56,075 bases of DNA from Geobacteraceae bacterium (GTDB lineage Bacteria; Desulfobacterota; Desulfuromonadia; Desulfuromonadales; BM103). Shown here one piece after another: positions 6,991 through 56,075 of the stretch. The position numbers and the translations under genes are program-made. Each line of letters opens with the position of its first letter. The stretch's first letter is position 1. Below the pieces are notes generated by a model, which worked only from the letters and a program-made list of their open reading frames with translations, was not told where the DNA came from and searched no databases. Location: contig JAHEDT010000017.1 in NCBI GenBank assembly GCA_024641085.1, positions 1-56,075 of the forward strand, in the 5' to 3' direction.

Positions 6991-7116
6991 GAATTCTCCT
7001 TAGGTTCAGATGAAGGGGCCACGAACGCTCCTGCCGTCACGCCGCCGCCGCAAACATGCTTATCAAGCCAGCGGTTTCAGGTCAACGGTTTATTGGCCAG
7101 AGCCCACCCGGTTCCC

Positions 7117-7145
7117 TTGCCATTTAAGAGGCTTCATGCTAATTT
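7117..7145 (+). promoter_or_regulatory. Candidate sigma-70 promoter for the trp cluster
   Basis: TTGCCA (7117-7122) and TAATTT (7140-7145) are separated by 17 bases, with an extended -10 TG immediately before (TGCTAATTT). This gives a transcription start about 20 bases ahead of trpE. I see no leader peptide with Trp codons and no T-box in 6991-7173. The -10 match is weak. Confidence 0.4.
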
Positions 7146-7173
7146 TGCCGGGTTAATCTCTTAAGGAAACGGC

Positions 7174-8655
7174 ATGTATTCCCCATCTCGTCACGAGTTT
7201 TTAAAACTGGCCCGCCACGGCAATCTGATTCCCGTCTATCGCGAAATACTTGCAGACATGGAGACCCCGGTTTCGGCCTTCTGCAAGATCGATGACCGGA
7301 AAAGCGCATTTCTGCTGGAAAGTATTGCCGGTGGTGAAAAGTGGGCCCGCTATTCATTTCTTGGTGTGGGTTCCGGAAGAGCGTTCCGGTGCCGCGGCAA
7401 TTATTTCGAGATCCTCGAAAACGGTCACCCGGTGGTATCCGGCGACACACTCAATCCTCTGGCCGAGCTGAAGATCTTCCTCTCCCCTTATCAGCCGGTG
7501 TCCCTGCCCGATTTGCCGCGCTTCTTCGGTGGCGCCGTCGGCTACCTCGGCTATGATATGGTCCGCCACATTGAGGACCTTCCCGACCTCAACGATGCTG
7601 AGATCGGCGCCTACGACAGCTGGTTTTTGATTACCGAGACGCTGCTGATCTTCGATAACATGCAGCAGAAGATCAAGGTCCTCAGCAACGTGCATTTGCG
7701 CGACGGCGTCGACCCTGGGGATTCATACGACCAGGCCGTGCAGCGTATTGACGACATGATTGGCCTTTTGCGCAAGCCATTGCCAGGGCGTTCTGAACGG
7801 TCCGGACCCGTTGCAGACAAAGAGTTGCAATCCAATTTCAGCCGCCCGGATTTTGAAACCGCAGTCGATCGCTGCAAGGGTTACGTGCGTTCCGGCGACG
7901 TCATCCAGGTGGTTCTTTCGCAGCGCTTCTCCGGTGATCTCGATGCCGAACCGTTTGATATCTACCGTGCCCTGCGAACCATCAACCCGTCGCCCTACAT
8001 GTTCTATCTGCAGTTCAACGAGACCCGAGTCATAGGCGCTTCTCCGGAAGTCCTGGTGCGCAAGGAGGGCGACCATGTCGAGGTCCGGCCGATTGCCGGG
8101 ACCCGGCCGCGCGGATCGACCTTCGAAGAGGATCAGCGTTTTGAACAGGAACTGCTCGCCGACCCGAAAGAGCGGGCGGAACATATCATGCTGGTCGATC
8201 TTGGCCGCAACGACCTTGGCAGGGTCTGTGCCACGGGTTCCGTTCAGGTCGATGAACTGATGGTGATCGAGCGTTACTCCCATGTCATGCACATCGTTTC
8301 CAACGTCAGTGGCCGGCTCCTGCCCAATTATGACGCCCTGGATGTTTTTGCCGCGACATTTCCCGCCGGGACCCTGAGCGGGGCACCGAAAATCCGTGCC
8401 ATGGAAATTATCGAAGAGCTCGAACCGGTGCGCCGGGAAATTTATGGCGGGGCCGTCGGCTATATCTCTTTCGGTGGCAACATGGACCTCGCCATAGCCA
8501 TCAGGACCCTGGTGGCACACCGGGATCGCATTCATCTGCAGGCCGGCGCCGGTATTGTCGCCGATTCTGATCCGGCGTCCGAATATGATGAGACCATCAA
8601 CAAGGCTAGGGGCGTCAAGCTGGCCATCGAAATGGCGCGCCGGGGGTTGGACTGA
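7174..8655 (+). CDS. trpE: Anthranilate synthase component I
   Basis: 493 residues; converts chorismate to anthranilate with ammonia supplied by TrpG, the first committed step of tryptophan synthesis. The feedback-site LLES motif lies at residues 47-50, so Trp inhibition is likely. The chorismate-binding domain shows [21 protein letters not shown] and [14 protein letters not shown] 7174 with TTAAGGA upstream. trpG starts two bases after the stop. Confidence 0.96.
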
Positions 8656-47168: not shown

Positions 47169-49571
47169 TTATGCGACCGGGGCGATCATTGTGCCATGCT
47201 CCTTCTTGTTCTTTGCAATCTGCATGGAAATAACCAGGCCGACCAGGGCGATGCCGACGGCGTCCGTCAACAAGGTCGGCCAGTAGAGGAAGCAGGTGCC
47301 GACGGCAAGAATCAGCCACTCGAGAAAGGTGGTTCGCCGGAACCAGAAGAACATGGTGGTGGCCGAAAAAGCGATGGTGCCGAGGACCGCCGAGAAGAAG
47401 GACGAGGCTGTTTGAAGGCCGGTGGCCGGGTCGGACGCTTCGATGATCGTTTCTCCGGGGTAGACCATGCCGCCGGCCAGGGATTTGACTTCGCTGACAT
47501 CACCATTCCTGTCCGCCTGGATGTCGGTAATCTCGTCGCCGACCATGATTTTGGCGACCACGTCGCCTTTGGTAAAATGCTGCCCTTCCTTGATATCAAC
47601 AGAGAGAACCGTGGCAAAGGGGATATCGTCATCAAGCTCCGGCACCATGACATTTGCCGTGTGCGGCTGAAACAGGATGGCCGGGGTGAACGCAAAGAGC
47701 AGAGGGCAGACATAGAGCAGCTTGGCAAATTTGAAACTGGTCCAACCGGTTTTCCAGGGGTCCGATCCGGCAATCGCGGCTCCGGCATAGGCTGCCACGC
47801 AGACCGGCGGGGTAATGTTCGAGTCCTGGCTGAACCAGTAGACGATCATGTGGGCACAGAGGATCGGTACGCCCATTTCCATGAGCGGCGGAACCGCCAG
47901 CACGGCGGTAATCAGGTAGGCTGCGGTCACCGGGACCCCCATGCCGAGCACCAGTGACGCCAGGGCGACGAGGAAAATGGCCGCGAGCAGGTTGCCGCTG
48001 GCCAGAGAAATGATAATGTCGGAAAACTTCAGGCCGATCCCGGTCAGCGAGATGGTGCCGACGATGATACCGATCACCCCGAGGGTCGCGCCAATGATCA
48101 GGGTGTTGTTGGCCCCGGTCAGGATGGCCTCCCAGATTTCCCTGGGTCCCATGCGGGTTTCCTTCTTGATCCAGCTGACTCCGATGCAGGACAGCGTGGC
48201 CCAGAAAGCGGCAAACCCGGGGGATCTGCCCATGATCATCAGGACGGTGATGACCGCCAGCGGCAGGGCAAAGTACCACTGTTTTTTCAGGACCTCCTTC
48301 CAGTGCGGAAACTCCTCGTCGTCGATCCCTTTCAGACCCAGCTTTTTGGCCTCGAAATGAATCATGCAGAACACTGAGAAGAAGTAGAGCAGGGCCGGAA
48401 ACACGGCGATCATCATGATGTAGGCGTACGAAGTCTCGGTCAACTCGGCCATCAGGAACCCGCCGGCACCCATGACCGGCGGCAGGAACATGCCGCCGAT
48501 TGACGCGGCAGGCTCGATGGCTCCTGCGACGTGGGGTTTGAACCCCGCCCGCTTCATGAGCGGGATGGTGAAGGCTCCGGTGGATACGGTGTTGGCGATA
48601 GCGCTGCCCGAAACCGAACCGAAGAAGGCCGAGGCGATCACGGCGACCTTGGCCGGACCTCCGGTGCTGCGACCGGCCAGGGCCAGGGGGAAGTCGATGA
48701 AGAACTTGCCGGCCCCTGACTTGTGCAGGAAGGCTCCGAAGAAGATAAACAGGATGACGTAGGTCGCCAGCACATTGGCCATGACCCCGAAAACTCCGTT
48801 GGTGGTCAGGTACAGGGCGGTACAGAGGCGTTCGATGCCGAAACCGCGATGGGCAATGATGTCCGGGAAGAGCGGTCCGAGATGGCCGTACAGAAACATG
48901 GCGACGCCGATAAAGGTCATTGACCAGCCGAGGACCCGGCGACAGACTTCAAGGGAGAGAATGACGCCGACGATGCTGACCATGGCGTCGAGGTTGGTTT
49001 CGGCTCCCGCCCGGTAATTCAGGACCTCGAATTCGTGAATCCAGTAATAAACGACCGCGGCGGATGCCAGGGCGTAGAGGAGATCGGAAAGGGTCGGGTT
49101 TTCCGGCCATTTTCTCATCATGACGTTGTCGATCGAAACTGCCGCGACGCCGATGATGCCTCCCACCAGCAGGATGGCACTGATCAACCCCTTGTTTCCC
49201 CCCGTCAGTGCAGCGTGAAATGCGTCGGTCGATTCAAAGAAGATGAGTCCTGCCATGGTGCAGGAGAAGATACCGCCGATGATCAGCGAAAGCGGTACCC
49301 GTATCCGGGACTTGCCGGCAGGGTAGAGCAGGAAGACCAGCACGTAGGTGACAAAAACATAGACTCCGCGATGATACTGGGTCGCCACGGCGGCCAGGCC
49401 GGCGGTGTAGAAATAGAACACCACCATGCAGGCCCCGAGCATTGCGACCAACCACTTGAAAAACCCGAACGGTGAACGGTAGGACTTGGCGTCCTTCTCG
49501 ATCAATTTTTTAAGTTTTTCCTGCTCCTCGAAAGAGAGGCTCTGGAGTTCTTCCTGGGCGTCTTGGGTCAT
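47169..49571 (-). CDS. TAXI-type TRAP transporter fused permease with lipoyl-like insert
   Basis: 800 residues. The small (DctQ-like) and large (DctM-like) TRAP membrane subunits are fused, as is usual for TAXI systems. Core motifs include GGPAKVAVIASAFFGSVSGSAIANTVSTG and LGMGVPVTAAYL. After the core, residues about 654-712 form a soluble beta-rich segment like a biotinyl/lipoyl domain (VDIKEGQHFTKGDVVAKI, IQADRNGDVSEV, GGMVYPGETI) with MVGD where the modified lysine would be; two more hydrophobic helices follow. ATG 49571 is preferred over 49622 because it gives the natural start MTQDAQEE. It works with the binding protein encoded just upstream. Confidence 0.92.
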   Translation of the reverse strand: MTQDAQEELQSLSFEEQEKLKKLIEKDAKSYRSPFGFFKWLVAMLGACMVVFYFYTAGLAAVATQYHRGVYVFVTYVLVFLLYPAGKSRIRVPLSLIIGGIFSCTMAGLIFFESTDAFHAALTGGNKGLISAILLVGGIIGVAAVSIDNVMMRKWPENPTLSDLLYALASAAVVYYWIHEFEVLNYRAGAETNLDAMVSIVGVILSLEVCRRVLGWSMTFIGVAMFLYGHLGPLFPDIIAHRGFGIERLCTALYLTTNGVFGVMANVLATYVILFIFFGAFLHKSGAGKFFIDFPLALAGRSTGGPAKVAVIASAFFGSVSGSAIANTVSTGAFTIPLMKRAGFKPHVAGAIEPAASIGGMFLPPVMGAGGFLMAELTETSYAYIMMIAVFPALLYFFSVFCMIHFEAKKLGLKGIDDEEFPHWKEVLKKQWYFALPLAVITVLMIMGRSPGFAAFWATLSCIGVSWIKKETRMGPREIWEAILTGANNTLIIGATLGVIGIIVGTISLTGIGLKFSDIIISLASGNLLAAIFLVALASLVLGMGVPVTAAYLITAVLAVPPLMEMGVPILCAHMIVYWFSQDSNITPPVCVAAYAGAAIAGSDPWKTGWTSFKFAKLLYVCPLLFAFTPAILFQPHTANVMVPELDDDIPFATVLSVDIKEGQHFTKGDVVAKIMVGDEITDIQADRNGDVSEVKSLAGGMVYPGETIIEASDPATGLQTASSFFSAVLGTIAFSATTMFFWFRRTTFLEWLILAVGTCFLYWPTLLTDAVGIALVGLVISMQIAKNKKEHGTMIAPVA

Positions 49572-49638
49572 ACGGACTACCTGTCTGCCTTGGAGTGTGG
49601 GACGTGTCGTCCATTTGATCACAGCTGCTGAAGTGCAG

Positions 49639-49691: not shown

Positions 49692-50687
49692 TTATTCTCC
49701 CATCTGAGCCGGGGTCAGCGAGAGCCCCTGTTCTTTCCAGAATTTCTGGGCGCCGGGGTGAACCGGTGTCACGATGCCGGTCAGGGCGCTTTTCACCGAC
49801 ATGGATTTTGCGGTGCTCTTGACCTTGACCATGTAGGAGAGGCCTTGCTTAGTATAGATGTTGGCCAGTGCGTTGTAGACATGTTCGGGAGCAACGTCCT
49901 TGCCGGCGACCCACAGGGCGGAGTCCTGGAACGACTGGACATCGTAATTAACGCCGCTGTAAGTCCCGGCCGGGATGGTGAGCGGGGCATAGAACGGGTA
50001 CTGTTTGAAGGCCCCACCCTTGTCACCTGCGTCCCAGGTGGAGAGAATCTTGATCTTGTTGCTGGCGGCCGCCTGGATCACCGAACTGTTGGGGTAGCCG
50101 GCAAACACCCACATGGCATCGATCAGTTTGTCTCCGATCGCCGCGGCCGCCTTGCTGTAGCCGATGAATTCAATATTCATCTTGTCCCATAAGCCAAGAG
50201 CGGTGAAATAACGCTGGGCGGAGGCTGCCGCACCGGAGCCGGCACCGCCGACCGCAACGCGCTTGCCAACGAGATCGGCGACCTGGTTGATGCCACTGCC
50301 CTCTAGTACGACCAGGTGGGCCGGCGCGCCGTAGAGGAAGGCCATGGCATATACGTTGGGATACTTGTTGGTGTCGTTGGTCAGGCGGCCGTTGCGCGCC
50401 AGGTAGGTGTCGCCGGAATAGGAGATGCCGAAATCGATTTCACCGGAGTTGACGCGACGCAGGTTTTCGACGGAACCGGCCGAAGCCATGTTGGAGACTT
50501 CGACATTCTTGAGCATCTTGGAAAGACGGGAAGCAATGCCGTTGGAGAAGTACTGGAAGGTTCCGCCTTCCGGCCCTCCACCGAAGCCAAGGCGGGTTTT
50601 CTCTGCCAGAACGGTGCCGGGCATGGCGAAGGCGGCGACCAGGGCGAAAGCGCTGAGCAGAGACAGGAAACGAGTGGTCTTCTTCAT
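49692..50687 (-). CDS. TAXI-family TRAP solute-binding protein
   Basis: 331 residues. Signal peptide of about 24 residues (FLSLLSAFALVAAFAMPGTVLA), then the TAXI fold starting TRLGFGGGPEGGTFQYFSNGIA and containing GSVENLRRVNSGEIDFGISYSG. Periplasmic ligand receptor; substrates of this class include glutamate and other carboxylates, but the ligand cannot be read from sequence. ATG 50687 with AGGAGGAAAA; the frame is open 15 codons upstream. It pairs with the fused permease. Confidence 0.94.
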   Translation of the reverse strand: MKKTTRFLSLLSAFALVAAFAMPGTVLAEKTRLGFGGGPEGGTFQYFSNGIASRLSKMLKNVEVSNMASAGSVENLRRVNSGEIDFGISYSGDTYLARNGRLTNDTNKYPNVYAMAFLYGAPAHLVVLEGSGINQVADLVGKRVAVGGAGSGAAASAQRYFTALGLWDKMNIEFIGYSKAAAAIGDKLIDAMWVFAGYPNSSVIQAAASNKIKILSTWDAGDKGGAFKQYPFYAPLTIPAGTYSGVNYDVQSFQDSALWVAGKDVAPEHVYNALANIYTKQGLSYMVKVKSTAKSMSVKSALTGIVTPVHPGAQKFWKEQGLSLTPAQMGE

Positions 50688-50801
50688 GGCTTTTCCTCCT
50701 TTGGTTGTTCCTCTCGGTGCATTCGGTTGCACCAGTAATCAAGGTATATTGACCGTTTCCCAACGAAAGCCCCTAAGTGAACATTAAGAATAATAGATTT
50801 A

Positions 50802-50830
50802 GATTTAAACACAATGCTCTGTTTTTGCAA
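50802..50830 (-). promoter_or_regulatory. Weak candidate promoter of the TAXI operon
   Basis: On the minus strand TTGCAA (50830 to 50825), 17 bases, TAAATC (50807 to 50802), in an AT-rich stretch 115 bases before the binding-protein gene. A better -10-like TATTAT follows 7 bases later without a good -35. The remainder of 50688-50987 holds no gene. Confidence 0.3.
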
Positions 50831-50939
50831 GAGTTAATGCCCTGGCTACCTCGAGCCTTTAGCCGATGGTGCCAGGCTGAAGGCGAGGAATCACGCACGT
50901 CCTGAGGAGGGCTTTGCCGGGGAGGAGGGGGGTATGAAA

Positions 50940-50962
50940 ACGGGCCGCGTGAGACGGCCCGT
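50940..50962 (-). terminator. Terminator of the uspA gene
   Basis: An 8-bp GC stem (50940-50947 with 50955-50962) with a 7-base loop, followed on the minus strand by TTTTC. It lies 25 bases after the uspA stop. Confidence 0.7.
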
Positions 50963-50987
50963 GGAGAATGATTGGTTTTGGGATTCT

Positions 50988-51476
50988 TCAGTCCGGAATG
51001 GGGATAACAAAGACCGGCCTTTTCGAGCGGCGTAAAACTTTCTCCGCCACGCTGCCGAGGAAGCTGTGCGCGATCGCACCCTTGCCGTGCGAACCGAGCA
51101 CGATCACCTCGGCTTGATGGCGATCCGCGGCCTCAAGTATCTGGGTCACTGCGTGTCCATGGACGACCTCGATCCCGGCAATGTTTTTCAGGTCCTCGGG
51201 GCGGTCGGCCAGTTCGTCGTGAGTGAACTGCTCCAGCCTGGCCGTCAGGTCTTTGCGCGCCTCCTCCTCGTGCTTTGCTTCGAAAGATTCCAGCACCCCC
51301 TGACCCATGACCGAGGAGACATAGGTACGAAATCCGGCATCGATTTCAGGGACGACGTGCAGCAAGTGGATTTTTGCCTGAGAGGTCCTGGCCAGCAGGA
51401 CTGCGTGCTTGAATGCGTATTGTGAATTTGGTGTCAGGTCGGTCGCGTACAGGATGTTCCGGTAGTTGGGCAGCAT
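50988..51476 (-). CDS. Universal stress protein, UspA family
   Basis: 162 residues, single Usp domain. The ATP-binding pattern G-x2-G-x9-G-S is intact in GSHGKGAIAHSFLGS near the C-terminus, so it is probably a nucleotide-binding Usp. ATG 51476 has AGGAGGA upstream; the frame is open 12 codons further. Usp genes often end TRAP operons (for example teaD with teaABC), and this one lies downstream of dctPQM on the same strand. Confidence 0.93.
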   Translation of the reverse strand: MLPNYRNILYATDLTPNSQYAFKHAVLLARTSQAKIHLLHVVPEIDAGFRTYVSSVMGQGVLESFEAKHEEEARKDLTARLEQFTHDELADRPEDLKNIAGIEVVHGHAVTQILEAADRHQAEVIVLGSHGKGAIAHSFLGSVAEKVLRRSKRPVFVIPIPD

Positions 51477-51618
51477 GGCTCTCCTCCTGGTAGGGAACCC
51501 GGCGGCCAGCATCCGACTCGGGGTCCTGTCAATAGGCTACTGCAAGTTGGAGCGTGCTGGCTGGTGCCGCGCGGAGCAGGGTAACCCTGCGCGACACCGG
51601 GACAGAGGCTCAATACCC

Positions 51619-51690
51619 CTAGAGGTGGTCGATGTAATTCGGCTGCCACAGGGATATCTGCGGGATATAGGTGATTAAGAGCAGGAAAAT
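51619..51690 (-). pseudogene. Remnant of a TRAP large permease (dctM) C-terminus
   Basis: On the minus strand 23 codons read IFLLLITYIPQISLWQPNYI followed by DHL and TAG. This is the characteristic end of DctM proteins and differs from the intact dctM end 220 bases upstream (ILVTYIPWLSTSLPYAI), so it comes from a second permease. The frame is closed by a stop 11 codons upstream. The rest of 51477-51910 shows no recognisable coding. Confidence 0.7.
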
Positions 51691-51910
51691 TTTCTGGGAC
51701 AGACCTGATCCAAATCATTTGATCGCAAGCAGCAGAGACTTGCACATGACACTCCCTGATCCGCAGGCTGGAAGGCACGGTTACGACCACCCAATGAGTT
51801 TATGATATCGATGACGGGATGTTTACAACCCCATCCGGCGAAGTCATGACTTTAAATGGTCTGAGTTTCTGCTTTATCAGACTCCTCCCTGATGCCGGCA
51901 GCCATGCTGG

Positions 51911-53527
51911 TTATTTCGTTATGATCTCCGGCCCCATAATGGCGTAAGGCAAGGAGGTTGAGAGCCATGGTATGTATGTGACTAAAATCAAAAAGAGCAT
52001 TAAAACCAGCACAAACGGCATGGCCGCCCGTACCACCCGAGCCAGACTCATCCCCGTAATGCCCGAAGTGACAAAGAGGTTGAGGCCGATGGGCGGGGTA
52101 ATCATGCCAATCTCCATATTGACGACCATGATGATACCGAGGTGAATCGGGTCGACCCCCAGCTCCATGGCGATGGGGAAAACCACCGGGGCGACGATGA
52201 TCAACAGACCGGAAGGTTCCATGAACTGGCCGCCGATAAGCAGCAGGATGTTGACGGCGATGAGGAAAGTGAACCAATTGAAGCCAACCCCCATCATCCA
52301 TTCGGTTACCATCTGCGGAATCCGCTCTGCCGAGAGGGTATGGGCAAACAGCAGGGCGTTGGCGATGATGAACATCAGCATAATGGTGGTTTTGGTTCCA
52401 TCCAAAAATGTCCGACGGGTATCGCCGCCAAACAGGGCCGGGAAAAATTTGCGTATCAGCAGCGACAAATTCCTGCCCCAGATTTTCATGCCGCCCGCGA
52501 AGCAGGCGCTGATTGAAAACCCAGCTTTTTTCGACTGAGTCGAGATATAAGCAACTGCCATCACGACAGCAATCACCAGGCCGGCGAGGTTGCGCTCGGA
52601 GGCCCCGATGGCTTCCGAATTGGCGGTGGCAAAAAAGGCGAGCATCATCCAGAAAATAAAGAACGACGCCGCATAGGCCGTGCCGTTGAAGCCGATTTTG
52701 CCTTCCGCGGAATCGTCCTGGAAAACCCAGGGGGTCTCTTTCAGGGGGCCCATGTCCCGATAGATGTAAAGGGCCACAAAGATCGAATAAACCGCAGCGA
52801 CGACAGCAGCTTCGGTGGGTGTGAACACCCCGCCGTAGATACCACCCATAATGATGGCGATGAGGAACAAGCCCCAGCTGGCCTCTTTGGCGCCATCAAA
52901 AACCGCGCCGAATCCCTGCCAGTTCTCAGACGGCAGGTTTTTAATCTTGGCAACGATATAGATGGTCAGCATCAGCATGCCACCTGCGAGAAAGCCGGGT
53001 ATCACACCGGCGAGAAACATCCGCCCGACCGATACATCGGTCGCAGCAGCGTAGACGACCATAACGATGGATGGCGGGATAAGGATGCCGAGTGTCCCCG
53101 CATTGGCAATAATGCCGGCGGCAAATTCCTTGGAGTAGCCTACCTGACGCATGCCGGCGATGGCGATGGTGCCGATGGCGACCACCGTGGCCGGAGATGA
53201 GCCTGACAGGGCGGCAAACATCATGCACGACATGACCGAGGCAATAGCCAGGCCACCCTGAAAATGGCCGACACTGGCGATGGCAAAGCGGATCAGCCGT
53301 TTAGCGACCCCGCCCGTAGACATGAAACAGGAGGCCAAAATGAAGAATGGAATGGCCAGAAGCGTATAATGTTCTCCTGCTCCGAACAGCGAAATCGCCA
53401 CCGAAGTGAGTGAATCGGGGGAAAAGAAGGTGATGAACAAGATCGACGACAAGCCCAGCGAAATGCCGACAGGAATACCGATCGCCAGCAGACCGAGTAC
53501 CAGAGCAAATAAGATTACCGATTCCAT
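51911..53527 (-). CDS. dctM: TRAP transporter large permease subunit DctM
   Basis: 538 residues, about 100 longer than usual. The transport core is clear: ALSGSSPATVVAIGTIAI, NAGTLGILIPPSIVMVVYA and GMITPPIGLNLFVTSGI. The extra length is an insertion at about residues 258-372, between the conserved TPTEAA region and TTIMLMFIIANA, with two further hydrophobic segments. It should form the ion-coupled channel with DctQ, driven by sodium. ATG 53527, 17 bases after dctQ, with AGAGAGGA upstream. Confidence 0.94.
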   Translation of the reverse strand: MESVILFALVLGLLAIGIPVGISLGLSSILFITFFSPDSLTSVAISLFGAGEHYTLLAIPFFILASCFMSTGGVAKRLIRFAIASVGHFQGGLAIASVMSCMMFAALSGSSPATVVAIGTIAIAGMRQVGYSKEFAAGIIANAGTLGILIPPSIVMVVYAAATDVSVGRMFLAGVIPGFLAGGMLMLTIYIVAKIKNLPSENWQGFGAVFDGAKEASWGLFLIAIIMGGIYGGVFTPTEAAVVAAVYSIFVALYIYRDMGPLKETPWVFQDDSAEGKIGFNGTAYAASFFIFWMMLAFFATANSEAIGASERNLAGLVIAVVMAVAYISTQSKKAGFSISACFAGGMKIWGRNLSLLIRKFFPALFGGDTRRTFLDGTKTTIMLMFIIANALLFAHTLSAERIPQMVTEWMMGVGFNWFTFLIAVNILLLIGGQFMEPSGLLIIVAPVVFPIAMELGVDPIHLGIIMVVNMEIGMITPPIGLNLFVTSGITGMSLARVVRAAMPFVLVLMLFLILVTYIPWLSTSLPYAIMGPEIITK

Positions 53528-53544: not shown

Positions 53545-54228
53545 TCAGTCTTTGAGTGCGTCTTTATGCTCAGCGACCAACTCTTCGGCTTCATGACCAC
53601 TGATCAGCATCGCCCGTTTATTCGTCAGGATATCCCAGAAGGCCTGCAGGGAGCGGAACGCCAGCATTGCCAGACCAACCGGCAGCACCAGCAGCAGCAC
53701 CCAGCGATGGACGCGGGGCTGCATACCGAAGACCTGCTGGAGGTATTCTGGATAGCGCAGCTCTTCCGCGCCGATGTGGACTTTGTACATCTTCAGCCAG
53801 TAGGCGATTGCTCCCCCCTTGGCATTCAACCCCAAACCCAGCCAGCCCAGCCAGACGGAGTCGATCAGGATCAAACCGTAGAACATGGCGGCCAGCGCAC
53901 CGACCAGGCTCAGAATCTTGGAGACCTTATTCGGTACGGCGTTGAGCAGGATATCGACCCCGAGATGCAACCCGATTTTAATGCCATAGCCCATGCCCAG
54001 CAGAATCAGCCAGCTGAAGGCCACCATGTTAAATTCCAGCGCAGCGCTCCAACCAGTATTAAAGCCGTATCTGGCTATGACCTGGCCAAAGGAAACCAGC
54101 ATGATTGCCGTCAAGATAAGAACAAGCAGATTTTCTTCCGCCCGCTCCATAAAACGGGGGAAGAGTTTTTCCAAGCCCCAGATTATCAGGACGAAAACCA
54201 ACAGATAGAGATGTGGCCAGTACACCAT
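53545..54228 (-). CDS. dctQ: TRAP transporter small permease subunit DctQ
   Basis: 227 residues with four membrane helices (for example LYLLVFVLIIWGLEKL and LLVLILTAIMLVSFGQVIARYGF) and the family segment FSWLILLGMGYGIKIGLHLGVDIL. A loop of about 60 residues lies between helices 3 and 4 (WLKMYKVHIGAEELRYPEYL), longer than in many DctQ. ATG 54228 with AAGGAGG; the frame is open 17 codons upstream. Middle gene of dctP-dctQ-dctM. Confidence 0.9.
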   Translation of the reverse strand: MVYWPHLYLLVFVLIIWGLEKLFPRFMERAEENLLVLILTAIMLVSFGQVIARYGFNTGWSAALEFNMVAFSWLILLGMGYGIKIGLHLGVDILLNAVPNKVSKILSLVGALAAMFYGLILIDSVWLGWLGLGLNAKGGAIAYWLKMYKVHIGAEELRYPEYLQQVFGMQPRVHRWVLLLVLPVGLAMLAFRSLQAFWDILTNKRAMLISGHEAEELVAEHKDALKD

Positions 54229-54268
54229 CGCTTGGCCTCCTTCGGTCGTGAGAAAAGCGCTTAAAAAG

Positions 54269-54295
54269 AGGGCCGACACAATTTATGCCGGCCCT
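54269..54295 (-). terminator. Partial terminator between dctP and dctQ
   Basis: A 7-bp GC stem (54269-54275 with 54289-54295) followed on the minus strand by CTTTTTAAG. It lies 24 bases after the dctP stop and 40 before dctQ, and would let the binding protein be made in excess of the permease. Confidence 0.65.
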
Positions 54296-54318: not shown

Positions 54319-55329
54319 TTATGAGCCGGCTGCCGTGTTAATCAGGTCAGCGCCGATCTCTCCTTCAAACTGCTTCCACACCGGCTTCATGGCATCAACC
54401 CACTTCTGCCGCTGTTCCGGAGTCAGGACGTTGATCTTGCCGCCGGCATCAAGGATGTTCTGACGGTTCTTGGCTTCTGCCGCCTTGACTTCTTCGTTGG
54501 CCTGTTGGGTCACTTCGTCGGCGATCTTCATGAGCTGGTCCCGGACTTCCGGCTTGAGGCTGTTGAGGAAATCGCTGGAGGTCATGAACAGGTAGGCCAG
54601 CAGCTGATGGCTTGTCTCAGTGGTGGAATCCTGCACCTCGAAGAATTTCTTGGTGTAGATGTTGGACCAAGTGTTCTCCTGACCATCGACAACACCGGTC
54701 TGCAGGGCGCCGTAGACCTCGGCAAAGGCCATCGGCTGCGGCGAAGCGCCCATGGCTGCAATCATCGCCTTGGCGACATCGGAAGTCTGGACGCGGAATT
54801 TCAGGCCGTTGGCGTCACTCGGAACGAGCAACGGTTTGTTGGCGGAGAAATACTTCATACCGGACATCCAGTAGCCCATACCGACGAAACCGACATCATT
54901 CATTTCGTTGAGCAGCCCTTTTCCTGCCGCACCATTGGTGAATCGGATGGCGGCATCCATATCCTTGAAAATAAACGGCAGATCGAACACGCCGAATTTC
55001 GGGGTATAGGAACCGAATTTTGACAGGGACGGGGCCAGGAACTGGACGTTGCCGGTCAGCAGGGCTTCAAGTTCCTTGCTGTCGCCGAACAGGGTGGAGT
55101 TGGGATAAACCTCAACACACATCACGCCGTCCATCTCCTTGTTGACCCTGGCGGCAAAATTGTTGGCGGCAACGACCTTCGGATGGGTGGTGCCACCCGT
55201 TACATGACTGAACTTTGTGACGCGTTCACCAGGGTCGCATCCTTCAGATGAGAATGCCATTCCGGCGGAAAAGGTTAAAAAGAAAACAGTTGTGGCCAAA
55301 ATACTCATGTGGAAAAACAATTTTTTCAT
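54319..55329 (-). CDS. dctP: TRAP transporter solute-binding protein DctP
   Basis: 336 residues. Signal peptide of about 26 residues (ILATTVFFLTFSAGMAFS), then the DctP fold: TKFSHVTGGTTHPK, the conserved LKFRVQTSDVAKAMIAAMGASPQPMAFAEVYGALQTGVVDGQENTW stretch (shown here in part as GVVDGQENTW) with the Arg of FRVQ expected to bind the ligand carboxylate. It binds a dicarboxylate or similar acid in the periplasm and delivers it to DctQM. ATG 55329 with AAGGGAG. Confidence 0.94.
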   Translation of the reverse strand: MKKLFFHMSILATTVFFLTFSAGMAFSSEGCDPGERVTKFSHVTGGTTHPKVVAANNFAARVNKEMDGVMCVEVYPNSTLFGDSKELEALLTGNVQFLAPSLSKFGSYTPKFGVFDLPFIFKDMDAAIRFTNGAAGKGLLNEMNDVGFVGMGYWMSGMKYFSANKPLLVPSDANGLKFRVQTSDVAKAMIAAMGASPQPMAFAEVYGALQTGVVDGQENTWSNIYTKKFFEVQDSTTETSHQLLAYLFMTSSDFLNSLKPEVRDQLMKIADEVTQQANEEVKAAEAKNRQNILDAGGKINVLTPEQRQKWVDAMKPVWKQFEGEIGADLINTAAGS

Positions 55330-56009
55330 TTGTGCAGTCTCCCTTTCATCTTGTGGAATTTGGTTTTGTTCTCACCCTGAAAACAAAACAACTTTTACAG
55401 CTCAATTGGTTCGAACGGCGCGATTTGATGGGTCTGTTCCGGCCGCCTCGCACGAGATATAAACTCGAAGTCAGTCAGCTAGCTCTTCTGTAAAGCTTAG
55501 TGAGACAGCTAGTGAGGGTTTGCATCAAGTGGTTGCCACCACGGCAACATGTCAGGGGTTTTCGGTCTGCCGACCTGAGAAAACATGAAGCTCCAGTCCG
55601 AATGACGGCAGAACTGCCTGCCCGCTGCCACCCATACCAAGCATAAGCAAATTAAATACCATATGTTTAGCGGATTTAAAACATGATTTTGAAAAATCCT
55701 GACTTTAGACAGGTATTTTCCGGAAAGTCGGGGGGTTGCAGGATCGGCGAGGAGGCGATTTATTTTTCGCCGCTGATCACGCCTGAGGCCGGAAACCAGG
55801 GCGGCGGGGCCGGCAGCGAGCGGGGGCGCCGGGCACAGCTGCCTCACTCAAAGGGCCTGGAAACCGATACCTTCAGGAAAAGATTCAATGATTTCAAACC
55901 GCTTCGTTGGACGAAGATGGCCGCCGGACGGTCTGACAGGTCGTGGAACGTATAAAGCCATTTTATTGAAGGACCGGTTGCAGGCCGGAGCGGGCTGAAC
56001 AGCCCCGTT
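55330..56009. other. Intergenic region upstream of dctP
   Basis: 680 bases without a supported gene. A 17-bp palindrome GTTGCC-N5-GGCAAC lies at 55532-55548 and may be an operator. Open frames at 55683-55955 (plus) and 55844-56047 (minus) lack ribosome sites and family character. No clear -24/-12 promoter was found for dctP. Confidence 0.5.
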
Positions 56010-56075
56010 TGTCTGACAAAGTGGTCGATTTCGGCCACTTTGGGCACGAAGTGGCCGAAATCCGCCTGGTGGGCC
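56010..56075. mobile_element. Probable terminus of an IS21-type insertion sequence, partial
   Basis: From TGTCTGAC at 56010 the sequence holds repeated AAGTGG-type blocks, including a perfect 14-bp inverted repeat (56027-56040 with 56049-56062) separated by 8 bases. IS21-family ends start with TGT and carry multiple short repeats of this kind ahead of istA. The transposase lies outside the window, so the assignment is inferred. Confidence 0.45.

Follow-up and report, generated by a model that had tools for sequence, protein, structure and literature searches.

What is the short DctM-like reading frame that lies between an intact dctM and uspA in this Geobacteraceae contig, and how did it come to stand beside a complete TRAP transporter operon? 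In the window (the whole stretch of 56,075 nucleotides that we analysed), the minus-strand codons 51690-51619 translate to IFLLLITYIPQISLWQPNYIDHL-stop. A preliminary description had taken them for the end of a DctM protein different from the intact one and proposed a deleted second TRAP operon. We compared this locus with those of same-family genomes and of named genomes from other lineages (features in Table 1).

Table 1 Features of the dctPQM–uspA locus in the window
Feature	Position	Strand	Basis
Fused TRAP permease, native flank	47169..49622	-	TIGR02123; order in G019, G001
TAXI-family TRAP solute-binding protein, native flank	49692..50732	-	TIGR02122; order in G019, G001
Native uspA, start ATG 51476 by alignment with native starts	50988..51476	-	Identity, PF00582
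Decayed native dctM 3′ end (relic)	51610..51687	-	DNA identity, codon comparison, distance to uspA
223-bp spacer, foreign dctM to relic	51688..51910	.	No match beyond chance
Foreign dctM, 538 aa, open frame	51911..53527	-	Similarity, tree, TIGR00786, PF06808
Foreign dctQ	53545..54279	-	Similarity, PF04290
Foreign dctP, solute-binding protein	54319..55329	-	Similarity, TIGR00787
Leader of about 200 bases, absent from native loci; left junction at or near 55531	55330..55531	-	Alignment of four upstream regions
Inverted-repeat element TGTTGCC-N5-GGCAAC	55532..55549	-	Aligned with similar element in G009, G015, G019
Native promoter block	55643..55697	-	82% to G009 over 55 bases, E 6.5e-7
Sigma-54-like GG-N10-GC site	55646-55661	-	Within promoter block; site scores
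AT-rich element	55674-55694	-	Within promoter block; single in own genome

A decayed dctM 3′ end precedes uspA

Both its translation and DNA matches to native dctM 3′ ends identify the segment as a DctM end, and the adjoining intact dctM, which ends TYIPWLSTSLPYAIMGPEIITK, is unlike it. The relic extends nine bases past the end noted earlier: the codons following the TAG read Gly-Tyr-stop, which is the native DctM end and thus sets the bounds at 51610-51687. The minus-strand reading over this interval is FLLLITYIPQISLWQPNYIDHL-stop-GY-stop, that is, the last 25 codons and the native stop of a native dctM, interrupted by an in-frame stop at 51619-51621.

When the uspA–dctM interval (51513-51910) was searched as DNA against 58 genomes (own plus 57 relatives; E ≤ 0.01), three non-self matches were returned. 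These were the dctM 3′ end of G015 (80% over 81 bases, E 3.5e-14, from 51687 downward), that of G009 (76% over 76 bases, E 8.2e-9, likewise starting at 51687), and G001, which covers the uspA leader only; relic-like DNA of G019 did not pass the E 0.01 cut-off in this search. Judged by these alignments, the similarity of the relic to dctM exceeds chance, and it breaks off at 51687. The relic ends 133 bp from uspA, as compared to 133 (G009), 145 (G015), and 132 bp (G019) for the native dctM genes. Over the 25 codons, four are altered relative to each native gene, one of them being the stop, as against one, two, and two among the native genes themselves; 21 of 25 keep the native residue vis-à-vis any one native gene. 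With its truncation at 51687, its in-frame stop, and a frame devoid of ATG, GTG, or TTG all the way from the previous in-frame stop to the TAG, the segment has the makeup of a dctM pseudogene remnant that is presumably silent.

The window genome encodes about 20 DctM-type permeases (21 DctM profile matches, two of which are pieces of the window dctM and one of which is weak). Having read all 21 matches as possible sources of the relic, we rejected them, for none fits as well as the native gene of G009. The nearest own-genome end (L001, VLLLITFVPQFSMWLPTLIYR) agrees in 11 of 21 letters, compared with 19 of 22 for G009, and is unmatched at the DNA level. When the genome's own DNA was searched for another copy of the relic or the spacer, only the query itself was found (next best E 1.21).

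Relatives carry a native dctPQM–uspA operon at the same place

Three same-family genomes (G009, G015, and G019) carry dctP-dctQ-dctM-uspA at the matching place. Their DctM proteins end LITYIPQISLWLPEYIDHL[K/R]GY, 132-145 bp before uspA (C-termini LITYIPQISLWLPEYIDHLKGY in G009 and G015, DHLRGY in G019), and in both G009 and G015 the relic aligns with the end of a dctM frame that lies immediately before uspA; the order in G019 is identical. A dctM ending in ITYIPQISLW upstream of uspA, which the preliminary description had named as supporting evidence in related genomes, is therefore present, and its proposal that a since-lost dctM used to run up to uspA, with the relic as its end, agrees with this native order. 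The native proteins are well conserved among themselves (89/68/86% identity between G009 and G019 for DctP/DctQ/DctM), and native DctP and DctM match TIGR00787 and TIGR00786, respectively. In G015, the native dctM (L033, G015:C50, about 6994-8393) is split over two reading frames, with residues 1-75 and 61-466 of the G009 protein matching in different frames, owing either to a real frameshift or to an assembly error.

The native resident is found at this place in 3 of the 22 family genomes, namely those that pair dctPQM with a close UspA. In the remaining ones besides G001, UspA is more distant (46-53%) or absent at E 1e-30, and DctM is absent at E 1e-60, bar partial matches of 50-52% in G007 and G013. 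G001, the sole same-genus genome (87% complete), has a contig that starts just 42 bases ahead of the first uspA ATG, and its sequence yielded neither type of dctM; hence, G001 neither supports nor contradicts a swap. Because of this contig break, a second view of the scar is lacking, which weighs against the displacement reading developed below.

The more general statement that uspA often follows dctM did not extend to named genomes. None of 80 named loci with a related dctM (the best 80 of 582) showed a relative of the two UspA queries, as against 3 of 3 family loci, by tblastn at E up to 1 with positive controls, a search that could miss distant Usp proteins; 75 of the 78 loci measured span at least 1000 bases after dctM. 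PMC8330102 describes a Halomonas ectoine TRAP cluster that includes a UspA gene, which resembles our locus in that a Usp-type gene adjoins TRAP genes.

The intact operon is of foreign affinity

By family models (TIGR00787, PF04290, and TIGR00786), the intact operon is a complete tripartite TRAP set of the DctPQM kind. Its DctP/DctQ/DctM proteins are 79/73/80% identical to those of Desulfofustis (L052), compared to 46-50/28-31/41-44% for their native counterparts in the three family genomes. A search of named genomes with the window DctM placed Desulfofustis first among the best 80 of 582 loci, followed mostly by gamma-, beta-, and alphaproteobacteria as judged by title. We built a DctM tree of 47 rows, in which 40 of those 80 loci were joined by the window, the three natives, and three own-genome outgroups; its loci were picked by likeness to the window DctM, with L111 left out, and the very long branches of the three outgroup rows leave it unrooted. 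In this tree, the window DctM pairs with Desulfofustis (support 100/99) deep inside a clade that unites Desulfofustis with gamma- and betaproteobacteria, and the natives form a separate clade (100/100) with Shewanella, Marinobacterium, Neptuniibacter, and the deltaproteobacterial MAG L126.

The two types also differ in their C-terminus, MGPE in the foreign and LPEYID in the native DctM, and in length, the foreign protein carrying an insertion (538 vs 465-466 aa). Among the 41 of these 80 named loci whose C-termini were read, 31 have the MGPE motif of the window dctM, seven the relic type, and three neither (L111, read in the wrong frame, L115, and L123). The foreign DctM (51911-53527) is 72 residues longer than the native one, and its match to the DctM profile falls into two pieces.

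At E 1e-80, the foreign dctM type occurs in 1 of 22 family genomes, that of the window alone; additional matches at this threshold in G009 and G019 are the native dctM. Searched with the DNA of the entire operon, G001 showed just three short matches (best E 3.3e-8), arguing that a close copy of the foreign operon is absent from the available G001 sequence. The G+C content of the operon is 54.5%, compared with 58.6-59.2% for the uspA, TAXI, and permease genes. The GC3 of the foreign genes (0.70) lies close to that of their neighbours (0.73-0.78), which weighs against the displacement reading.

Native sequence borders the foreign operon on both sides

To the right, the window UspA is 94% identical to that of G001, 77% to that of G019, and 68-69% to those of G009 and G015. 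In G019, uspA, the TAXI protein gene, and the fused permease gene are ordered as in the window, and G001 has all three as well, its DNA being 87% identical to the window over 4.4 kb.

To the left, an alignment of the upstream regions revealed the AT-rich element, the GG-N10-GC site, and a TGTTGC...GGCAAC-like element in identical order in the window and the three native loci. The similarity of the promoter block to G019 covers 21 bases only (E 0.005), and that to G015 is under the cut-off; the inverted-repeat element is short and weaker evidence than the block. The AT-rich element occurs once in its own genome at up to 3 mismatches. A looser pattern hit 13 places in 9 genomes when the 22 family genomes were searched (reversed-pattern control, 5); all four places with 0-1 mismatch are upstream of dctP at this locus, and the other nine have 2 mismatches.

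Beyond the promoter, ispE (TIGR00154) is found in G009, G015, G019, and the named MAG L126. In the window genome, ispE starts 129 bases inside contig C62 and is oriented as the loci of G009, G015, and G019 would predict; colinearity with G009 extends over the first 4 kb of C62. The window contig likely adjoins C62, but the longest exact overlap between their ends is no more than 8 bases, so that this join is likely but short of shown, a point that counts against the displacement reading. Near the contig end, 13 bases short of it, positions 56027-56062 form a perfect inverted repeat with 14-bp arms around an 8-base loop. Allowing up to 3 mismatches, the genome has no other copy of this repeat, and no plasmid matched the sequence around it.

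The 223-bp spacer at the right junction is unmatched in its own genome, in the 57 relatives at E 0.01, and in 83 loci (best E 0.18). We considered it as a mobile-element trace and as a decayed native dctM or dctP leader and rejected both, as plasmids and phages gave no match at E 0.01 and neither native sequence matched it. The interval 51480-51960 contains no direct or inverted repeat of at least 12 bases, and no sigma-70-like site was found in 51450-51960. A terminator-like site is located at 51894-51911 on the plus strand (one observed vs a shuffle mean of 0.3).

Probable displacement in place and competing explanations

Replacement in place explains the native remnants on both sides of the foreign operon, and since the relic is the tail of a native dctM, the native type came first in the lineage, which gives the direction of the swap. 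On the strength of these comparisons, we consider it very probable that a foreign dctPQM operon displaced the native TRAP operon in situ. The ancestor would have carried the native dctP-dctQ-dctM behind a sigma-54-like promoter, followed by uspA and the TAXI TRAP transporter, as in the family relatives. A related but foreign dctPQM would then have taken the place of the native three genes, with the right breakpoint falling inside the native dctM, so that its last 25 codons and stop were left upstream of uspA, and the left breakpoint between the native promoter block and dctP. In keeping with this, DctP, DctQ, and DctM are nearer to Desulfofustis (the tree covers DctM only) while UspA is 68-77% identical to family genomes; a native-type resident occupies the same place and order in relatives (3 of 22 genomes); and native flanks lie on both sides, with the relic and uspA to the right, the promoter block to the left, and ispE by contig position only. 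The spacer and the leader of about 200 bp are left without explanation in the displacement account and weigh against it.

The exchange may have taken one step or passed through a short-lived tandem stage. One path, compatible with displacement, is that the foreign operon was inserted between the native promoter and dctP and that a deletion then took the native dctPQM except for its last codons. This course, which we hold possible rather than likely, yields the identical final arrangement, and under it the spacer could come from the 3′ side of the foreign DNA or from sequence that the deletion brought together; however, it requires two events, the two types occur together in none of the 22 family genomes at the cut-offs used, and the spacer contains no recognisable native sequence. 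The same observations bear on the earlier proposal of two tandem TRAP operons, the second of which was deleted down to its last codons and its uspA. A native dctM tail and uspA do remain, and insertion beside a native operon with subsequent deletion could have produced them. The tandem starting state itself found no support: none of the 22 genomes carries both types at the cut-offs used, the spacer has no DNA match to the native operon, the intact operon is foreign in affinity and the lost one native, and a native block survives beyond the foreign operon.

If, instead, both operon types were present in the family ancestor and were differentially lost, the distribution of the types would reflect vertical paralogues. 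Marinobacterium has both, in different species, so that both are widely spread; yet the foreign type was not found in 21 of 22 family genomes at E 1e-80 and the window DctM sits deep in the clade of Desulfofustis and gamma- and betaproteobacteria, rendering such a history improbable. We likewise regard it as very improbable that a metagenome-style assembly chimera fused foreign DNA to the family locus. Although the genome is in 151 contigs and the G+C of the operon is slightly lower, the remnants on both sides demand two false joins, each within matching operons, and the codon-altering decay of the relic is unexpected of a fresh chimera. Finally, the native residues retained in 21 of 25 codons and the preserved distance to uspA might be taken to indicate a short functional peptide or a uspA leader rather than decay. 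This is scarcely credible in view of the stop within the native frame, the absence of a usual start codon, the excess of altered codons over that seen between native genes, and the fact that the identical letters form a dctM end in relatives.

Displacement in place has a close counterpart in the literature. A passage of PMC1274311, which cites Omelchenko et al. 2003 on mosaic operons, describes xenologous displacement in situ as the replacement of resident genes, in their original position and unchanged order, by relatives acquired horizontally, and replacement at the same place with the order kept is what likens our locus to it. Here, by contrast, a three-gene transporter operon was replaced, a piece of the old gene can still be read, and direction and place are visible in the sequence, beyond trees alone. 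The locus is a clear but ordinary, well-marked new example of this established process. Its interest lies in the fact that in-place operon swaps are often inferred from conflicting trees, whereas the stub and the old promoter show place and direction.

A possible resident promoter for the foreign genes

Expression of the foreign genes may now be driven by the native promoter. Sigma-54-like sites were scored against the 12 consensus letters. On this scale, the GG-N10-GC site scores 9/12 in the window and 11/12 in the three natives, and it lies 332 bases from the ATG, as compared to 186-205 bases in the natives. Sites of 9/12 are frequent (26 in the window, counting both strands), which weighs against the displacement reading; closer to dctP, the window offers only 8/12 and 7/12 sites. 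Among named loci that fall outside the native clade and have 250 or more bases ahead of dctP (drawn from the best 80 of 582; L075 was left out because its dctP runs off the contig), 33 of 70 have a site of at least 10/12 within 250 bases, against 0.6% of shuffles. In the Desulfofustis upstream region, the best site is just 8/12.

The lack of a sigma-54-like site between dctP and the native one, though such sites are often near dctP in the incoming type, suggests that the operon perhaps lost its own. Tentatively, and with a little less than even confidence, we propose from these site patterns that the incoming operon lost its site and was placed under the resident sigma-54 promoter and leader element. 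If true, such promoter capture would wire a transporter of another lineage, perhaps with another substrate range, into host control in one exchange, and the locus offers a testable case of whether or not a foreign transporter is run by a resident promoter.

The downstream TRAP neighbourhood

The genes that follow uspA differ among the family relatives. In G009 (L034, G009:C7), unrelated genes come after uspA, and in G015 (L033, G015:C50) there is an oppositely oriented TAXI/fused-permease set. It follows that the TAXI gene is part of an order common to G019 and G001 only, and that the downstream TRAP neighbour is itself variable within the family. No Rfam family reached its gathering score in 50700-52000. 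Residues 667-727 of the fused permease in the window weakly match the biotin/lipoyl model PF00364 (20.9 bits, just below the cut-off of 22.1), and the fused permease of G019 shows a weak match to a biotin/lipoyl carrier model.
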